NCBI RefSeq assembly: GCF_030378065.1
Contig: NZ_JAUCGJ010000001.1
Location: 62,001 to 126,000, forward strand
Direction of reading: 5' to 3'
DNA length: 64,000 nucleotides
Source: Candidatus Venteria ishoeyi
Lineage (GTDB): Bacteria > Pseudomonadota > Gammaproteobacteria > Beggiatoales > Beggiatoaceae
Under the pieces are notes generated by a model. It was given only the letters and a program-made list of their open reading frames with translations, was not told the DNA's origin and ran no database searches. The stretch's first letter is position 1; every line of letters begins with the position of its first letter. The position numbers were made by a program, and so were the translations under genes. Positions 44,166 through 62,512 of the stretch are shown here, in pieces.

Positions 44166-44325
44166 TTATCTGAGTTCGGTGTAAGCTTCTTTCAGCGCTA
44201 AAGGCGCTGAAAACTGGTTTCACCTTACGTTGGTTCATTAGGTAATACCTTGAGTTTGGTGTAAGCTTTTTTTAGTGCTAAAAGTGCTGAATACCACTTC
44301 CATCTCATGCTGATTTATGAACTTG
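44166..44325. repeat. Two adjacent type B palindromes in the nadB-rseC gap
   Basis: The first (44166-44236) has CTGAGTTCGGTGTAAGCTTC, an inner stem TTTCAGCGC / GCGCTGAAA and CACCTTACGTTGG. The second (44252-44325) has CTTGAGTTTGGTGTAAGC and a weaker stem with AGTGCT / AGTGCT. Both belong to the type B family of 3798 and 7180. They separate divergent genes and may contain their promoters. Confidence 0.55.
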
Positions 44326-47393: not shown

Positions 47394-50300
47394 ATGAAAA
47401 AATTATATTTAATATTCGGATATATCTTAATCCTGTGCTATCCCATAGCACATGCTCAAATACTAGAATTTCCCACTTCTCAAGTCGGAATGAATTACGA
47501 TAATTACGGTTTTTTATGGCTGGAAGATGGCGAGGATTTACCAGGCATTCCAAGTGAAGATAAAAGCCAATATATACAGGAGTTAATGAACTGGGCAGCT
47601 TATTGGGATTTACCAATTCATCAGGTATATGCTTCCGGCCTTATTAACCTACCTGTTGATAGCATCATTGATGTGGACAAGCTCAATGGTATCGAAGAAT
47701 ATTACGACATCAACACACCGCTTTGGAAATTGATGCGTGATGTGCTATTTCTGGAAAGTATGCAAGATAGCATCGTCAAGTGGGAAAGCGAGTATATTAT
47801 AGGTGTGAGTGCTAATGGAAAAGAAGGAAAGTTTAAGGAAGCTCTTTACCTTGCAACAATCATTATGGAGCGCTATCAAAACTATATTGGTGATGAAGAG
47901 CGAAATGTATTGCTCAGTGTTCTGCTTGGCATAGGTGAACAAGGTGAGCATAGTTGGGGTAACCTTTTATTGGCTGATCATACAGCAGAAGCACTGACCA
48001 AAGATAAGGTCTTGGAGTATTTAGCAGAAGGTCGCCTGACTTTTTTTGATGAAAAAGACAACTTGGCTATTATTGATGGCAAAAAACTGTTAGCAAGCAT
48101 TGGTATATCTTATTATGCTAAATCTGCCAAATCAGAAACTGATAAAAAAGTTGTTGCCTTATTTGAAGCAGGGCAAACTATCTGGGGTGCCACTCAAGGG
48201 GGCATGGGGCTGATTGCTGCGCCAGGTTTACTGGTGTATCAAGGTCTTACATATGTTATTGATGGTATAAAGGCAGAAACATTAGGTGCGCATTTACTCA
48301 ATTATTATCGTTTAGCAACAGAACACACATCGCTTCTGAAAAATTATGCAGACAGTGGAAATACCGCTTCATGTGGAGATTTGAACAACTCCATGTTTGA
48401 CGCCACTAACAAAATCCTTTGCTTTGGTTATAACCGCGCTGGTGGTTATAATGATTACTTCCGTAGCACTTCTCACACTAATGACTCAACATTAAATGAA
48501 TTAGCTTATTTAAGAGAATGTACTTTCCTTAATGATGAAGAAAAGAGAAACTGTAGCGTTGATCTAAATCCTACAGGTTCACAAATCACCAAAATCCAAA
48601 AAATGTATGCCTGGGCAAATCTCTTTGCCAGCATAAAAGCCTTGAATATCCTACAGATTAAAAGAGATATTGCCGCCCATGCACATCTTAAAATGTTAAT
48701 TGCAGGGGATTTTAATCTGGATATGAACTGCGATGTCAGTAATGATGGTTATGCACCTGCCACAATAACTTGCGATGCAACACAAGCGCTTCCCAATGAG
48801 GTTTCAATTAAAGAGTATCACTATGAATTCCCAGGTGATAGCACACCTGTTGCTATTGGTGTAACCGCTCCAGGAATAAGGCAAGCTAATTTTCCGGCTG
48901 CGGGGGTTTATGATATTTCTTTGACTATTAAAACAACGGAACAAGACTATACCATTAACAAAAGAATCACCATCAAAAAACCCCCGGTTCAGGCTGCCAC
49001 AACACCGCCGGAGCCACCAAAAATCAAACTGGAAATCGAGGGTGAAAAAGCCAAATTATCCTGGCTGGATATTTTTGATGCTGAAAACTACACCTTGTTT
49101 TATGCGCCATACTCCAATCCGGTCACGCAGGAAACCCTGGATAATATTCAAAGCATTCCCGTAGGCCAGCAAAACTTTTTCTCGGTCGCCTTTGATAGAG
49201 GTGTCAGTCTTTATCTTGCGGTGCAAGCCAATAACCAGATGGGTACAGGTAATTTCTCCAATGTCGAGGCACTGGTGATTCCCGATCCAGTCACCGTACC
49301 GCCACAAGCACCTGAATTTAGAGAAACCAAACAACGGATTAACCGTATTCTGATGAAATGGAATGCGGTTGATAAAGCTGAAAGCTATACACTCTATGTG
49401 CAGGAAGACGGGCAGGCGGAACAAGTTTTGGCATCGGGTTTAAGCAATACCTATTATATTCACGGCAATGTAAAAAATGGTGTTACTTATCGTTATCGCC
49501 TGACGGCGCAGGATATAAATGGTTTAAGCAGTGCTTATTCCGTACCAGTATCTGAAACTTTTAACAATGCAGGAGAAGAACCAACGCTTGCTCCAGCTTT
49601 ATCTGCACCGGATAATCTGACAGCCACCCCCGGCGATGCTGAAATCACCCTCAGTTGGGATGCGGTCAGTGGCGCGGCGGCTTATCGGATAACGCATAAA
49701 ACTGGCACTGGAAAATTTGGCACTACGGTAGCCTCCGTGCCGGGAACCAGCCACACCCTGACCGGGCTAACCAATGGCGGCAGTTATGTGTATAAAGTCG
49801 CGGCACTAGATGCCGATGGCAACAGCGGCGACTATTCCGCCGAAGTCAGCGCCAGTCCGCAAGCCGCTACGCCGCCACCGGTTATCGGCGGCACCGGCAA
49901 GCTCAACGACACCGGCATCACCTGGGGTGGTGAGTATTCCAGAGGCAACAACGATACTTGCACCGGAGAAACCATCAGCCAGCAGGACTGCTCACAGGGG
50001 CGGGATGTCAGCCATAACGATGACAGCGATGGCAATGCAGGCTTCAGCTTTGCCAAAGTATCGGGCGGGCAATGTGTGCAGGATAACGTCACTGGCTTGA
50101 TGTGGGAAGTCAAACAAGGCGGCAATGGCACTAAAGGCGATGAAGGACTGCATGATGCCGATGATGAGTACAACTGGTACAACACCGACTCCAGCAGCAA
50201 CGGTGGCGCGGACGGCTATGCCGATGATGACGGTGACATTTGTCATGGCTACCAGTCCGGCAGCACCGGCACATATTGCAACACCCAGGCGTATGTGGCG

Positions 50301-50567
50301 CGGGTCAATACTGAAGGCTGGTGTGGTTATACCGACTGGCGTATGCCCACACGAGAAGAATTACGCTCGATTGTCGATTATGGGACTTATAATCCGGCGA
50401 TAGACACCCGTTACTTCCCCAATACACAATCCGATTGGTACTGGTCGGGCTCGCCCTATGCCGCCGTTTCAAACGACGCCTGGCACGTGGACTTCAACTA
50501 TGGGCACTACGGCAGCTACTACCGTAGCTACGGCCAGCACGTTCGCCTGGTGCGCGACGGACAGTGA
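47394..50567 (+). CDS. DGR target protein 1: exported PKD/FN3 protein with variable DUF1566 C-terminus
   Basis: Starts MKKLYLIFGYILILCYPIAHA, a signal peptide; AGGAG lies 7 nt before the ATG. The first 430 residues are unassigned, largely helical. Residues about 438-525 resemble a PKD domain. Three fibronectin III domains follow (about 535-630, 640-725, 737-825). About 890-1057 is a DUF1566 (Lcl-type) domain with VTGLMWEVKQG, NTEGWCGYTDWRMPTREELR and WYWSGSPYA. The last 41 residues are the VR, which ends HVRLVRDGQ. DUF1566 is related to the C-type-lectin-like folds that DGRs diversify. The likely role is surface display of a mutable ligand-binding site. Confidence 0.9.
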   Translation: MKKLYLIFGYILILCYPIAHAQILEFPTSQVGMNYDNYGFLWLEDGEDLPGIPSEDKSQYIQELMNWAAYWDLPIHQVYASGLINLPVDSIIDVDKLNGIEEYYDINTPLWKLMRDVLFLESMQDSIVKWESEYIIGVSANGKEGKFKEALYLATIIMERYQNYIGDEERNVLLSVLLGIGEQGEHSWGNLLLADHTAEALTKDKVLEYLAEGRLTFFDEKDNLAIIDGKKLLASIGISYYAKSAKSETDKKVVALFEAGQTIWGATQGGMGLIAAPGLLVYQGLTYVIDGIKAETLGAHLLNYYRLATEHTSLLKNYADSGNTASCGDLNNSMFDATNKILCFGYNRAGGYNDYFRSTSHTNDSTLNELAYLRECTFLNDEEKRNCSVDLNPTGSQITKIQKMYAWANLFASIKALNILQIKRDIAAHAHLKMLIAGDFNLDMNCDVSNDGYAPATITCDATQALPNEVSIKEYHYEFPGDSTPVAIGVTAPGIRQANFPAAGVYDISLTIKTTEQDYTINKRITIKKPPVQAATTPPEPPKIKLEIEGEKAKLSWLDIFDAENYTLFYAPYSNPVTQETLDNIQSIPVGQQNFFSVAFDRGVSLYLAVQANNQMGTGNFSNVEALVIPDPVTVPPQAPEFRETKQRINRILMKWNAVDKAESYTLYVQEDGQAEQVLASGLSNTYYIHGNVKNGVTYRYRLTAQDINGLSSAYSVPVSETFNNAGEEPTLAPALSAPDNLTATPGDAEITLSWDAVSGAAAYRITHKTGTGKFGTTVASVPGTSHTLTGLTNGGSYVYKVAALDADGNSGDYSAEVSASPQAATPPPVIGGTGKLNDTGITWGGEYSRGNNDTCTGETISQQDCSQGRDVSHNDDSDGNAGFSFAKVSGGQCVQDNVTGLMWEVKQGGNGTKGDEGLHDADDEYNWYNTDSSSNGGADGYADDDGDICHGYQSGSTGTYCNTQAYVARVNTEGWCGYTDWRMPTREELRSIVDYGTYNPAIDTRYFPNTQSDWYWSGSPYAAVSNDAWHVDFNYGHYGSYYRSYGQHVRLVRDGQ
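50442..50564 (+). repeat. DGR variable repeat VR1
   Basis: 41 codons align without gaps to the TR (51255-51377). My count gives about 20 substitutions at template adenines and one at a non-adenine (GAC to TAC). The template AAC codons appear here as TAC, GGC, AGC, CAC and GAC. The 3' end CTGGTGCGCGACGGA matches the TR exactly; then VR1 reads CAGTGA where TR reads AAGTGG, like the IMH/IMH* difference of known DGRs. Confidence 0.95.
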
Positions 50568-50583
50568 CCTTTGCTTTTTGCCT

Positions 50584-50620
50584 GCCCGGTTAAAACTGTG
50601 CACGAAAGTTTTTGCTGGGC
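50584..50620 (+). promoter_or_regulatory. Hairpin downstream of VR1
   Basis: GCCCGGTTAAAAC pairs with GTTTTTGCTGGGC around an 11-nt loop, 17 nt after the stop codon. The same hairpin lies after VR2. In the Bordetella phage DGR a hairpin just downstream of the IMH is needed for retrohoming. Confidence 0.7.
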
Positions 50621-50733
50621 ACGGAGCTAATCAGAATGCTGTCCGGGAACGCAAGACCTACTCTATTCTTCGGACAGCCCCGAGCCTTATCCCCGCTTGC
50701 GGGGATCGCGACATTTTTTGGAAATCTACCGCT

Positions 50734-51108
50734 ATGTATCAGAAAACCAGCCCGATATTACGTGATGCCAACCGCCTGCTAGTTGAAATGGAACAAGTAG
50801 TACGCCATTTTCCGCGTTATCACAAATACACTCTGGGTAGTGAGTTACGCAGTCAGGTATTCAAAATCAACCAGCTCATTGCACGCGCCTGGCAATATAA
50901 ACAACAAACAAACTATTACCTCAAACGGATCATTCGCAGTATAGATGACTTAAAAATCCAGTTACAACTGGCAAAAGAATTACAAGTATTTCGTAATTTT
51001 GCAGAATTTCAACGCCTGGCTGAATTAACAATCAGCCTGGGCAAACAGAGTGGGGGCTGGTTGCGGCGCCTAGCCAAGCGACAGCCAGAAGCAGAGCAAG
51101 GCGGATAA
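50734..51108 (+). CDS. avd: Avd-like four-helix-bundle DGR accessory protein
   Basis: A 124-residue, basic, all-helical protein lies between VR1 and TR, the standard place for the accessory variability determinant. Its sequence (LLVEMEQVVRHFPRYHKYTL, GSELRSQVFKINQLIARAW, a Gln/Arg-rich third helix) fits the four-helix-bundle (23S rRNA-IVP/Avd) family, including the FPRYHKYTLG motif. Avd forms a barrel-like pentamer binding RT and template RNA. The ATG at 50734 is chosen because the longer open frame upstream (to 50458) runs through VR1 in a different frame. Confidence 0.88.
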   Translation: MYQKTSPILRDANRLLVEMEQVVRHFPRYHKYTLGSELRSQVFKINQLIARAWQYKQQTNYYLKRIIRSIDDLKIQLQLAKELQVFRNFAEFQRLAELTISLGKQSGGWLRRLAKRQPEAEQGG

Positions 51109-51254
51109 GCAATCGCTTCTCTGTTTTGCTTTATTGCGCGTGCTGATGTCACTGTGCGCGGGTGAGACCCGGCTATGCGCCGGGTATGAAAAAAAGCCCA
51201 GGCTACCGTCAGGATGCCAAAGGCTTGAGGAACTTCACCCGCTAAGGAATTGTC

Positions 51255-51377
51255 TGGTCAGGCTCGCCCTATGCCGCCAATTCAAACAACGCCTGGAACG
51301 TGAACTTCAACAATGGAAACGACAACAACAACAACCGTAACAACAACCAACACGTTCGCCTGGTGCGCGACGGAAAG
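51255..51377 (+). repeat. DGR template repeat TR
   Basis: 123 nt that, in the target frame, contain 13 AAC and 2 AAT codons out of 41 and end HVRLVRDGK. The adenine-rich AAY pattern is the hallmark of DGR templates: adenine mutagenesis at the first two positions reaches many amino acids but no stop codon. It lies between avd and RT and differs from both VRs almost only at adenines. It is non-coding in its own frame context; the RT ORF overlaps it in another frame. Confidence 0.95.
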
Positions 51378-52890
51378 TGGCAACGCATCGGTATTCAACT
51401 TCGCTGACTTGTACGCGGCTTATCTGCAATGCAGACGACGCAAACGCGGCACGTCAGATTGTCAGCATTATGAACAACGCTGGCTGGACAATTTGTTTGA
51501 TACCTTATTTCGCTTACAGCAGCAAAGCTACCAGCCCACCACGACTCATTGCTTTGTCGCAGTCAAGCCTAAAGCACGGGAAATTCATGCCGCAAACTTC
51601 GCCGACCGCGTGGTGCATCACTGGCTGGTACCACGTCTGGCGGCTTTGTATGAGCCAATTTTTATTCATGATTTATATTCCAATCGTGAAGGCAAAGGCA
51701 CCCATGCAGCAGTAAAGCAGTTGCAACATTTTATGCGTAGTAAAAATCTCTCAGGATTAAATAGACCTTACTTCCTGCAACTGGACATTCATAACTTTTT
51801 TAACAGCATTGATCGCCCAATTCTCTTTAAGCAGTTACAAAAACGCCTGGGTAAAGCGATTAAACAAGGCAAGACAGGGCAGCAGGAAGCCCAAGCCCTG
51901 CGCTGGCTTTGCCACGTATTGCTAAAACACGACCTCAGTGCCGATGTACAATATATTGGCAAAGCCAAAAGTTTCAGCCAGGTGCCACCGCATAAACGCT
52001 TTGGCGCCTTAGGTGCAGACAAGGGCTTGCCAATAGGCAATCTCACCAGCCAGTTTTTTGCCAATGTCTATCTCAATGAACTGGATCAATTCATCAAACA
52101 TCAGCTTAAATGCCGCCATTATTTGCGCTATGTCGATGACTTTATCCTGCTGCACCAGGAACCAGCGCAACTGCGCCGCTGGCAACAACAAATCAGTGTG
52201 TTTTTGCAACAAAACCTGTTATTGCAATTAAAACCGGGAACCCGGTTGGCACCCGTTGCCGATGGCGCAGACTTTCTTGGTTATATCGTCCGCCCACATT
52301 ACCGTTTGGTGCGCCGCCGCGTGGTGGGCAATTTATATGAAAAACTCCATACCTGGCAAAAGCACTTTATTTCCGGTTCTCTTGTCACTGGTTGGCGCAT
52401 CAAGCTCTATCAGCAAGCCCGGGAACAATTACGCACCACTTTAAGCAGTTATCTGGGGCATTTTCAGCATGCCCATCATTACCGCCTGGTGCAGCGTATT
52501 TTTACCCGTTTTGCATGGCTCTCCTTGCTATTTCAGGCACCAGAACTACCTTTGCACCCATTGTGGCAACCGCAAACGGTCAGTAGCTATCGTAGTCAGA
52601 TTGCTTATTTTCGCCGTTTATTTCCAAAGGCTTGCTTGCATACGCAGCGTGGACGTGAATGTGATTTTGTCCTGCCAGGCATAAGCCTGCCAATCAGTCA
52701 TACCGCATTTAACCTGCTCAAGACACTGGACTGTCTGCCAAAACAAGCAGCAAACCCACAAAATCTGTCAAGGCTTGCGGTAAGTAAGCTTGTTATCAGG
52801 GAAGCCGGTTTTCTTAAGGGCGGACTCAAACGCCGCCTTATTACCCAAATCCACACTTTTCCAGGAGTACCCTTATGTTATCACGTCTAA
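51313..52890 (+). CDS. DGR reverse transcriptase
   Basis: The catalytic motifs are YFLQLDIHNFFNSIDR (motif A), GLPIGNLTSQFFANVYLNEL (with the IGNLTSQ block characteristic of DGR/group II-type RTs), HYLRYVDDFILL (YVDD active site) and ADFLGYIVRPHYRL. It copies TR RNA with frequent misincorporation at adenines. The first in-frame start is an ATG at 51313 inside the TR; before it is an in-frame TGA. The conserved RT sequence begins near FNFADLYAAYLQCRRRKRGT (51395), so a TTG at about 51409 could be the true start. The last 16 nt overlap target gene 2. Confidence 0.95.
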   Translation: METTTTTTVTTTNTFAWCATESGNASVFNFADLYAAYLQCRRRKRGTSDCQHYEQRWLDNLFDTLFRLQQQSYQPTTTHCFVAVKPKAREIHAANFADRVVHHWLVPRLAALYEPIFIHDLYSNREGKGTHAAVKQLQHFMRSKNLSGLNRPYFLQLDIHNFFNSIDRPILFKQLQKRLGKAIKQGKTGQQEAQALRWLCHVLLKHDLSADVQYIGKAKSFSQVPPHKRFGALGADKGLPIGNLTSQFFANVYLNELDQFIKHQLKCRHYLRYVDDFILLHQEPAQLRRWQQQISVFLQQNLLLQLKPGTRLAPVADGADFLGYIVRPHYRLVRRRVVGNLYEKLHTWQKHFISGSLVTGWRIKLYQQAREQLRTTLSSYLGHFQHAHHYRLVQRIFTRFAWLSLLFQAPELPLHPLWQPQTVSSYRSQIAYFRRLFPKACLHTQRGRECDFVLPGISLPISHTAFNLLKTLDCLPKQAANPQNLSRLAVSKLVIREAGFLKGGLKRRLITQIHTFPGVPLCYHV

Positions 52891-53366
52891 TATTTGTAGC
52901 TTGCGGGCTTGTTTTTACTTGCAACCTGTCCGCCCAAACCTGCAACCCCGACATCCAGGCAAGTACCCCCGATGCGCGTTTTACCCACAATGGGGATGGT
53001 ACAGTCACTGACCAGCAAACCGGCTTAATCTGGAAGCGTTGCCTGGAAGGGCAAAGCGGCGCGGATTGCATGACAGGTACGCCAGAAAGCTTTACCTGGC
53101 AACAGGCTTTACAACGCGGGGCATCACAAAGCCCCTGGCGTTTACCCAATATCAAGGAACTGGCTTCTATTGTTGAACTGCATTGTTATGATCCGGCAAT
53201 TAATTTAACGATGTTTCCTAATGACCCTGGTGGTTATGTCTGGTCAGGCTCGCCCTATGCCGCCCATGCGAACCTCGCCTGGTACGTGGACTTCGACAGT
53301 GGGCACGCCAGCGGCTACTACCGTGGCTACAGCCGGCACGTTCGCCTGGTGCGCGACGGACAGTGA
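52875..53366 (+). CDS. DGR target protein 2: small exported DUF1566 protein with VR2
   Basis: A 163-residue protein with a signal peptide (MLSRLIFVACGLVFTCNLSA) and a single DUF1566 domain: VTDQQTGLIWKRCLEGQSG, TWQQALQRG, WRLPNIKELASIVE, YVWSGSPYA. The last 41 residues are VR2. The start overlaps the RT stop by 16 nt, suggesting co-transcription and translational coupling. Unlike target 1 it has no extra domains, so it presents the diversified domain alone in the periplasm or outside. Confidence 0.9.
   Translation: MLSRLIFVACGLVFTCNLSAQTCNPDIQASTPDARFTHNGDGTVTDQQTGLIWKRCLEGQSGADCMTGTPESFTWQQALQRGASQSPWRLPNIKELASIVELHCYDPAINLTMFPNDPGGYVWSGSPYAAHANLAWYVDFDSGHASGYYRGYSRHVRLVRDGQ
53241..53363 (+). 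repeat. DGR variable repeat VR2
   Basis: Ungapped 41-codon match to the TR. My count gives about 23 changes at template adenines and one elsewhere (TCA to GCG includes T to G). Codons such as AAC to CTC and CAA to CGG show multiple adenine changes in one codon. The 3' CTGGTGCGCGACGGACAGTGA is identical to VR1. Confidence 0.95.
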
Positions 53367-53383
53367 CCTTTGGTTTTTGCCTA

Positions 53384-53418
53384 CCCGGTTAAAACCATGC
53401 ACGAAAGTTTTCGCCGGG
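53384..53418 (+). promoter_or_regulatory. Hairpin downstream of VR2
   Basis: CCCGGTTAAAAC pairs with GTTTTCGCCGGG (10 of 12 pairs) around an 11-nt loop, 17 nt after the VR2 stop. It matches the hairpin after VR1. The region of similarity between the two sites extends about 60 nt past the VR stop codons. Confidence 0.7.
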
Positions 53419-53506
53419 CACGGAGCCAAGCCCGGTAGGAAAAATTGAAGACAAAAATTGAAAGCCAAAAATTGAAGACAGCCATTAAAATGTAACCGTT
53501 TACCCT

Positions 53507-61252: not shown

Positions 61253-62512
61253 ATGATGTTTAAGCCCTTACCCTTTTATATCGGCCTGCGCTATACCCGC
61301 GCCAAGCGCCGTAATCATTTTATTTCTTTTATCTCCCTGACTTCCATGTTCGGCATTGCGCTGGGCGTGACTGCGTTAATTACGGTATTGTCAGTAATGA
61401 ACGGCTTTGAAAAAGAGCTGCGCGAGCGCATGTTGGGCATGGCCCCGCATGTCATGGTATTTGCCGCAGGTGATCGGGGCATGGCTGATTGGGAAGTGAT
61501 GGCAAAATTGGTGCGCGATACACCGACGCAAGTCACCGGTATTGCGCCTTATGTGCAGGGACAGGCGATGCTGACCCATCGTAAGCGTATTAAAGGCACC
61601 TTGTTTCAGGGTATAGACCCGGCGATTGAGTCGGAAGTCTCCCAGGTGGGCGATAACATGAAACAAGGCAGTTTACAGGATTTACAGCCGGGAAAATTTA
61701 ATGTCTTGCTGGGTCAGGAACTGGCGATGGCGATGGGCGTCATGGTTGGCGATAAGGTCACTGTGGTGGTGCCGCAGGCCAATATCACGCCGGTTGGCGT
61801 GTTGCCACGCATGAAACGCATGACCGTTGCCGGTATTTTTGAAGTCGGTATGCATGAATTTGACAGTTCCCTGGTATTGATGAATATTGCCGATGCTGCG
61901 CGTTTATTGCGTATGCCTAAAGCACATGTACATGGTATCAATATTAAAATTACCCAGATGTTTGATGCGCCCAAAGTCAGTCGCGCTTTGGTGGATGAGC
62001 TACCAATTGGTTATTACATTCAGGATTGGACTTATCGTCATGCCAATTTTTTCCGGGCGATAAAAATGGAAAAAACTGTGATGTTTGTGATTTTAAGTCT
62101 GATTGTTGGCGTAGCAGCATTTAATATTATCTCGACCCTGGTGATGGTGGTAACGGATAAAGAAGCCGATATTGCAATTTTGCGCACCTTAGGTGCAACG
62201 CCGAATACGATTATGGCGATTTTTATGGTGCAGGGTTCCTTGATTGGGGTATTTGGTACCTTGCTGGGACTTGTCGGTGGCGTCAGTCTGGCACTGAATG
62301 TGGAAACCATTATTCCCAGTATCGAACAAGCATTTAATGTACAGTTTTTGGATTCCTCGGTGTATTACATCAGTGATTTACCCTCGGAACTAAACTGGGA
62401 TGATGTGCGTAATATTGGCATTTTATCCTTACTGTTAAGCCTGCTGGCAACACTGTATCCTGCACGCCGTGCGGCAAAAACCCAACCTGCTGAGGCGCTG
62501 CGTTATGAATGA
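61253..62512 (+). CDS. lolC: Lipoprotein-releasing ABC transporter permease LolC/LolE
   Basis: A FtsX-like permease of 419 residues: first membrane helix in the [20 protein letters not shown] region, large periplasmic domain (about 50-265), and three C-terminal helices ([40 protein letters not shown], and [17 protein letters not shown] before the last). It extracts lipoproteins from the inner membrane for LolA. One permease only is present; LolC and LolE cannot be told apart by sequence alone. Its stop overlaps the lolD start. Confidence 0.9.

Follow-up and report, generated by a model that had tools for sequence, protein, structure and literature searches.

How does a diversity-generating retroelement (DGR) with a single template repeat (TR) find its targets, and how many variable repeats (VRs) does it reach? 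This question is raised by a stretch of DNA of 64,000 nucleotides from Candidatus Venteria ishoeyi (hereafter the window; positions 62001–126000 of contig C27 in the source genome, G000, which comprises 4.4 Mb in 115 contigs with a completeness of 98.8%). A previous sequence-only reading had described here a complete DGR with two exported DUF1566 targets. All five elements that it placed in one block, namely VR1, avd, TR, the reverse transcriptase (RT) gene and VR2, are present where claimed, and both target proteins possess the Lcl_C (DUF1566) domain and a signal-peptide-like start (judged by inspection, as for all targets below). The number of targets has to be revised: contigs C40 and C5 of the genome each carry another VR, which makes four targets rather than two. 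We conclude, with a probability of about 0.88, that this is a DGR working both in cis and in trans, in which one template feeds four Lcl_C proteins by the mechanism proposed below. The element is laid out as follows (window coordinates):

47394–50567, plus strand: target gene 1, a 1057-aa protein with a signal-peptide-like start, fn3 and a C-terminal Lcl_C (DUF1566) domain ending in VR1 (Pfam Lcl_C 2.7e-33, fn3 1.3e-11)
50443–50565, plus strand: VR1, 21 differences from TR, 20 of them at TR adenines
50565–50581, plus strand: T-rich box after VR1, TGACCTTTGCTTTTTGC, identical after VR1, VR3 and VR4 and with one change after VR2
50734–51108, plus strand: avd, accessory variability determinant, 124 aa (PHROG Avd 3.1e-16)
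51256–51378, plus strand: TR, 123 nt with 42 adenines, 3' end GGAAAGTG (IMH*, see below)
51313–52890, plus strand: reverse transcriptase (RVT_1 9.9e-16; DGR RT 8ub7, E 1.6e-63, Z 32.1)
52561–52866, plus strand: RT C-terminal domain resembling MutS domain I, about residues 391–492 of the 499-aa model
52875–53366, plus strand: target gene 2, a 163-aa Lcl_C protein with a signal-peptide-like start, ending in VR2 (Lcl_C 1.1e-30); its start overlaps the end of the RT gene by 16 nt
53242–53364, plus strand: VR2, 24 differences from TR, 23 of them at TR adenines
53364–53380, plus strand: T-rich box after VR2, TGACCTTTGGTTTTTGC

Adenine-specific differences between the template and four variable repeats

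The alignment of TR with VR1 and VR2 spans 123 nt (41 codons) and is free of gaps. The sequence-only reading had estimated roughly 45 differences with two at non-adenine positions, and our count agrees: 45 differences, 43 of them at TR adenines, the single exceptions lying at TR position 51321 for VR1 and 51282 for VR2. A DNA search of the genome with the TR revealed VR3 on C40 and VR4 on C5, both bearing the VR-type 3' end. They show 18 and 28 differences from TR, respectively, every one at a TR adenine, so that all 81 non-adenine positions are identical to TR. Over the four VRs pooled, 89 of 91 differences fall on TR adenines (binomial p 5e-39; 59 A>G, 16 A>T and 14 A>C), which extends the adenine-restricted signature noted earlier and supports the identification as a DGR. 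At 51375 TR has an adenine and each of the four VRs a C; this position separates the initiation of mutagenic homology (IMH) from its TR counterpart IMH*: the 3' end reads GGACAGTG at the four VRs versus GGAAAGTG at TR. With 51375 excluded, 85 of 87 differences remain on adenines (p 9e-38). The whole assembly was searched for a 29-nt pattern taken from the 3' end of the VRs, allowing up to 3 mismatches; it matched the four VRs at 0 mismatches and TR at 1, and no other site. The VR frame contains 15 AAY codons and a single codon, within IMH, that is able to mutate to stop; up to 10^21.9 protein variants per VR can be computed as an upper bound.

Could the Lcl_C tips instead have arisen by plain duplication, followed by gene conversion and selection but no reverse transcription? 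Duplication did contribute to the formation of the targets: VR1 and VR2 share about 60 nt past their stop codons (50568–50630 and 53367–53429), a trace of duplication linking targets 1 and 2, while VR3 and VR4 share only the box. However, the concentration of differences at TR adenines, with genes for RT and Avd adjoining, already tells against this explanation, and we regard it as hardly credible.

Target proteins

VR3 forms the end of a 480-aa protein that combines a caspase-like domain (Peptidase_C14, PF00656, 3.7e-27, 96 bits vs. a cut-off of 21.4) with Lcl_C. It contains the motifs GHG at 109 and DAC at 164, which we take to be the His-Cys dyad of caspases; the NCBIfam model caspase_w_EACC1 reaches 63.6 bits, below its cut-off of 140. 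VR4 is the end of a 371-aa Lcl_C protein. Lcl_C (PF07603) was found in all four targets, and all four start with a signal-peptide-like sequence. DUF1566 has been described as having a lectin-like fold (PMC6642488). The signal-peptide-like starts and this reported fold make ligand binding outside the cytoplasm the most likely role of the variable tips.

Whether hidden VRs reside in further Lcl_C genes was also considered. The only candidate, on C36, was rejected as a faint match (9 differences at adenines and 10 elsewhere; a homologue or a remnant), and comparison of TR with the further Lcl_C loci on C42, C40 near 38 kb, C4, C10 and C102 gave no match. Those without a TR match include a pair of tandem-Lcl_C proteins, each about 600 aa long (C42:17646–18461 and C40:37855–38661); the tandem Lcl_C targets of a related genome, G150, match theirs.

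The earlier suggestion that two targets sharing one template are an uncommon arrangement is not supported, given four targets in this genome, flanking target pairs at many related RTs (see below) and published multi-target DGRs. One survey lists multiple VRs for 271 of 948 DGRs, and of these 271, 216 have one TR and 235 have multiple target genes; DUF1566 targets of DGRs are likewise already published there (PMC6642488). A short and a long target have been described for loci organized like DGR 8 of Thiohalocapsa, and DGR targets in trans have been published as well (PMC10907252).

The reverse transcriptase core and its 5' region

A profile search with the RT ranks the DGR RT 8ub7, presumably the BPP-1 RT, first (E 1.6e-63), and the fold comparison agrees: the AlphaFold model (mean pLDDT 87.6) superposes on 8ub7 with Z 32.1 and a root mean square deviation (rmsd) of 1.9 over 317 residues (Foldseek 7.1e-24). 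The RT also matches PHROG 1423 RT (8.5e-98), and PADLOC assigns it generic and DRT-type RT models. It carries IGNLTSQ in place of the motif QGxxxSP. The avd product matches NCBIfam DivGenRetAVD (4.9e-11) and Pfam bAvd (2.4e-7), both below cut-off. Three more reverse transcriptases are encoded elsewhere in the genome (C86:85041–85655, C45:3–473 and C10:59081–59719), one of them in a 996-aa frame.

The RT frame is open across 528 codons from 51304, a position inside TR; TR and the beginning of this frame thus overlap. The start codon candidates before the core are ATG 51313, itself inside TR, and TTG 51409. This limited choice, together with the start codon found just after TR in several relatives (L044, L047, L051 and L059), would fit a fossil, i.e. 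a DGR that was recently active and is now dead, for instance by loss of a usable RT start codon. Against a fossil stand the open frames of RT, avd and all four targets, and the absence of any non-adenine change in VR3 and VR4; we consider it improbable. As the frames are intact and VR3 and VR4 lack non-adenine differences, the DGR is likely to be active or recently active, as far as can be judged from sequence.

In the first 150 nt after TR the folding z-score is negative at 13 of 13 loci, and the RNA of the RT 5' region folds more strongly than the remainder of the gene (mean z -1.60 vs. -0.58, p 0.017; 9 of 13 loci, 27 comparison windows). Although modest, this difference is compatible with a structured spacer located within the RT gene.

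Proposed mechanism

We propose that TR is transcribed and that the 5' portion of the RT gene serves as the 3' RNA spacer. RT and Avd would then produce a cDNA of TR, inserting random bases wherever the template has an adenine, as suggested by the BPP-1 system and by the outcome visible in the VRs. Any site ending in the GGACAGTG form (IMH) could have its VR replaced by this cDNA, a step in which the T-rich box just 3' of the VR probably assists. TR itself, which ends in GGAAAGTG and lacks the box, would escape replacement. In this way one template would supply the two flanking targets, the remote caspase-Lcl_C protein and the remote 371-aa Lcl_C protein, a relationship that can be read directly from the four VRs.

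Several observations weigh against the proposal of an active DGR working in cis and in trans. VR1 and VR2 each have one non-adenine difference. The best NCBIfam model for the RT is a group II intron maturase, below cut-off, and our RT tree had no outgroup of non-DGR RTs. The RNA of the RT 5' region at the locus itself is near zero in folding (z -0.16 and -0.43). Finally, no remote VR was found in the fetched Lcl_C stretches of five of eight related genomes (Aeromonas, L047, Marinomonas, SI34 (G403) and Geobacter).

Related elements

Of 128 loci, 80 were kept in one selection; a set of 85 loci with an RT was also analysed, of which 82 were placed on the RT tree (L059, L066 and L103 were left out; the RT frames of L059 and L066 are broken). 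In longer loci, the scan for TR/VR pairs that included L105 (see below) covered 10 kb of sequence. The clade of 13 RTs to which the window's RT belongs has VRs on both sides of the RT in 9 cases. Remote VRs were sought in eight related genomes, via stretches fetched for their Lcl_C genes; this set left out the genomes of L042, L048, L052, L059 and L066 and covered Methylovulum in part. Remote VRs are clear in two of the eight, Thiorhodospira and G150, and possible in a third, Methylovulum. In Thiorhodospira, five of nine fetched stretches contain a total of 9 VR-like sites, on a 2.9-Mb contig and on another (these include one 36-nt match and one site with 7 non-adenine differences). G150 has 13 VR-like sites on 6 contigs, many of them in tandem Lcl_C pairs (a 14th match, of 37 nt, was omitted); some sites, with up to 10 non-adenine differences, are likely to be decaying. 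In Methylovulum a single site lies on another contig and may be the missing neighbour.

Two relatives carry an insert of about 1 kb between TR and RT (Methylovulum, L043 1209–2236, and Methylomonas, L042 1956–3036), with an open reading frame for an IS200-like Y1 transposase (6.5e-8 in L043; in L042 0.0021, below cut-off). In addition, the beginning of the RT gene is present in L043 as a second, nearly identical copy of 182 nt. At L066 (2044–4061) an Lcl_C coding sequence lies directly 5' of the RT, the RT frame is broken and the scan found no TR/VR pair; this is probably a degenerate element.

A MutS-domain-I-like tail on the reverse transcriptase

The RT extends about 110–115 residues past its core; Q, G, G and R are invariant in this tail, which closes with a GYLKGGLKRR-like stretch. 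When the tail was modelled alone (mean pLDDT 72.8) and compared by VIA-align, rows 1–33 were all MutS, MSH or mismatch repair proteins (Z 5.4 to 3.2), with the next row at Z 2.3; the best superposition has Z 5.4 over 85 residues with rmsd 5.4, and the listing includes E. coli MutS residues 4–118. Compared with a profile of MutS domain I from 12 genomes, one tail alignment gave a probability of 14.5% (E 0.0019), and a second alignment with more distant tails added reached 77.7% (E 1.9e-5), collinear with the domain. Pfam MutS_I was detected in one of 10 tail members at 0.0082, and in one of 10 of a second, overlapping set at 0.0057. A PDB sequence search with the tail returned two chance matches (E 0.74 and 1.2), which were rejected.

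Phe-x-Glu is the mismatch motif of MutS. It is absent from the RT tails, where the MutS GDFYE aligns with a stretch that lacks F-x-E and is mostly GRxxx. In view of the weak matches and of this absence, we term the tail MutS-domain-I-like rather than a member of the family. It could also be a lineage-specific alpha/beta domain whose resemblance to MutS domain I is fortuitous, and several results point that way or caution against the resemblance: a Z of 5.4 is middling, and the tool warns that Z <8 may reflect a common arrangement only; the 33 rows represent many entries of few proteins; Foldseek with the tail is weak (best match MutS, E 0.84); the tail of the window's own RT has no match in the Pfam search, and none of the tested members attains the MutS_I gathering score; two other Pfam names occur in single tail members, about tenfold weaker (0.072 and 0.078 vs. 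0.0082); and one of the two profile comparisons stays at 14.5%. The uninterrupted run of mismatch repair proteins down to row 33, the collinear profile match, the MutS_I genes above cut-off that adjoin related RTs, and the naming of MSL, with PF01624, as a DGR accessory (PMC10053308) all speak against a fortuitous likeness, which we judge unlikely.

Stand-alone MutS_I genes, above the Pfam cut-off and without Phe-x-Glu, lie by related RTs in L202 (6264–6656, minus strand), which also has a tailed RT, and in L105 (3551–4015, plus strand), where no TR/VR pair was found in the stretch scanned. Tail profiles (E up to 0.01) detected no copies outside RT frames in the loci scanned.

The tail is present in 17 of the 85 RT loci; four of the 17 (L178 and L201–L203) were fetched with a tail query, and without this bias the count is 12, among the selection of 80 loci. 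On the 82-RT tree its distribution needs two changes (shuffled mean 14.0), e.g. one gain and one loss, the latter in Geobacter L050, which falls within the 13-row clade that holds 12 tailed RTs (support 100/100). Among the genomes sampled the tail is rare: 5 of 369 genomes of the class at E 0.01, with two below 1e-20 (the source genome and G150), 4 of 398 of the phylum and 2 of 42 of the family, each count including the source genome. We found no published fusion of an RT with MutS domain I in the literature searched, to which a survey naming MSL did not belong. PMC10053308 mentions 'domains fused to RT' in general terms.

As Phe-x-Glu is missing, the tail is most likely a docking module, for nucleic acid or protein, that serves the cDNA/target duplex, and not a mismatch sensor. 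More speculatively, and in our view rather doubtfully, a captured MutS domain I may in this RT lineage have become part of the retrohoming machinery and hold the heavily mismatched cDNA/VR heteroduplex, as a shield from host mismatch repair or a licence for strand replacement, with IMH and box marking any chromosomal site for writing, so that a dispersed set of exported receptors and a caspase are diversified in trans by one element.

The T-rich box downstream of variable repeats

The box that follows all four VRs was not found in the flank after the genome's own TR. Across the lineage, a motif consisting of T[TG]G, 1–5 nt and TTTG occurs within the first 24 nt after 35 of the 42 VRs counted and is represented in 11 of the 14 elements (from 13 genomes, as L044 and L045 share one), compared with 15 of 1050 downstream windows and 9% of shuffles. 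The set lists 45 VRs; two internal Thiorhodospira VRs and Marinomonas VR2, all box-less, were left out, and the count is 35 of 45 with them restored. In G150 the box is kept after VRs within coding sequence, with differing encoded residues. Flanks of VRs on viral contigs (27 distinct flanks out of 30 rows, from 19 DGRs) contain TTTG in 11 of 27 cases vs. 13 of 491 control windows (p 1.4e-9), and the strict motif in 3 of 27 vs. 3 of 491 (p 0.002); these flanks had already been viewed before the test, and the TTTG word and the 24-nt span had been fixed earlier.

We regard the T-rich box as likely to be a target-side element, neither indispensable nor tied to the MutS-like tail. Several points count against a role at the target site. 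The motif was defined after the data had been viewed; within the 42-VR set it is missing at Geobacter, the counted Marinomonas VR and L052, and the omitted Marinomonas and internal Thiorhodospira VRs also lack it, the latter two still showing adenine-specific differences. At 38 VRs of more distant RTs the TTTG excess is mild (55% vs. 40% of controls, p 0.011). L202 was the one locus among three additional tailed RTs to yield a TR/VR pair, and by inspection the strict motif is absent from the first 24 nt after its VR. Such box-less VRs, and the terminator-like hairpins after several VRs, would also suit an inherited 3' flank or a remnant terminator without a target-site role. The retention of the box inside coding sequence in G150 despite different encoded residues, the TTTG in viral-contig flanks and the box-less flank of the TR argue in the other direction, and we rate an inherited flank or terminator as a serious alternative that falls somewhat short of even odds.

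Two further ideas were dropped. A strict link between box and tail fails at the viral-contig DGRs, which have TTTG after their VRs and of which 0 of 19 match the tail profile (several are cut inside RT). A hairpin or cruciform as the common target signal of the lineage was set aside, as folding is strong in only some of the 42 flanks (mean z -0.63; -1.80, -1.76, -4.86 and +0.84 after VR1 to VR4). We found no published description of a T-rich box after VRs in the literature searched.

Elsewhere in the window, positions 44171–44318 contain two intergenic 68-nt direct repeats, 75% alike and 80 nt apart from start to start.

There is no settled account of how DGRs locate their targets, work in trans and evade mismatch repair, and the lineage with MutS-like tails brings these questions within reach of experiment. 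With 13 VR-like sites per template in one genome (G150) and a short candidate box, tests by single mutations are feasible. The caspase target, with its hypervariable tip, is relevant to the notion that sensors in cell-death or defence systems are diversified by DGRs.

Comparison with known systems

DGRs with multiple targets, with remote targets and with TR overlapping RT are known; the less ordinary features here are the MutS-like domain fused to RT and the T-rich box. The element shares with the BPP-1 DGR (mtd-avd-TR-brt) the RT core fold (Z 32.1), Avd, the position of TR between avd and RT, the adenine-specific VR changes and the IMH/IMH* pair. It differs in its four targets, two of them remote, in the MutS-like RT tail and in the overlap of TR with the RT frame, and what follows its VRs is a T-rich box rather than a hairpin common to all (VR4, z +0.84).

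The clade 5 DGRs of multicellular bacteria (Thiohalocapsa PB-PSB1; PMC10907252) have in common with it short and long targets, targets in trans and an association with caspase-like effectors; here, however, the caspase lies inside a target protein, behind a signal-peptide-like start. According to PMC7517822, cyanobacterial DGRs also have remote variable proteins (76 in that set) and an orthocaspase before a variable lectin domain, but most of those proteins are predicted to be cytosolic, whereas the four Lcl_C targets described here all appear export-like by inspection.

As in the case of the MSL accessory (MutS domain I, PF01624; PMC10053308), a MutS-domain-I-like module is tied to a DGR RT, and it stands alone in L202 and L105; in the present element it forms the C-terminal part of the RT itself, has diverged strongly and occurs alongside avd. 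The overlap of TR with the 5' end of the RT frame is shared with DiGReF structural group 3 (PMC3521204), from which the element does not differ in principle, except that its start codon may sit inside TR.

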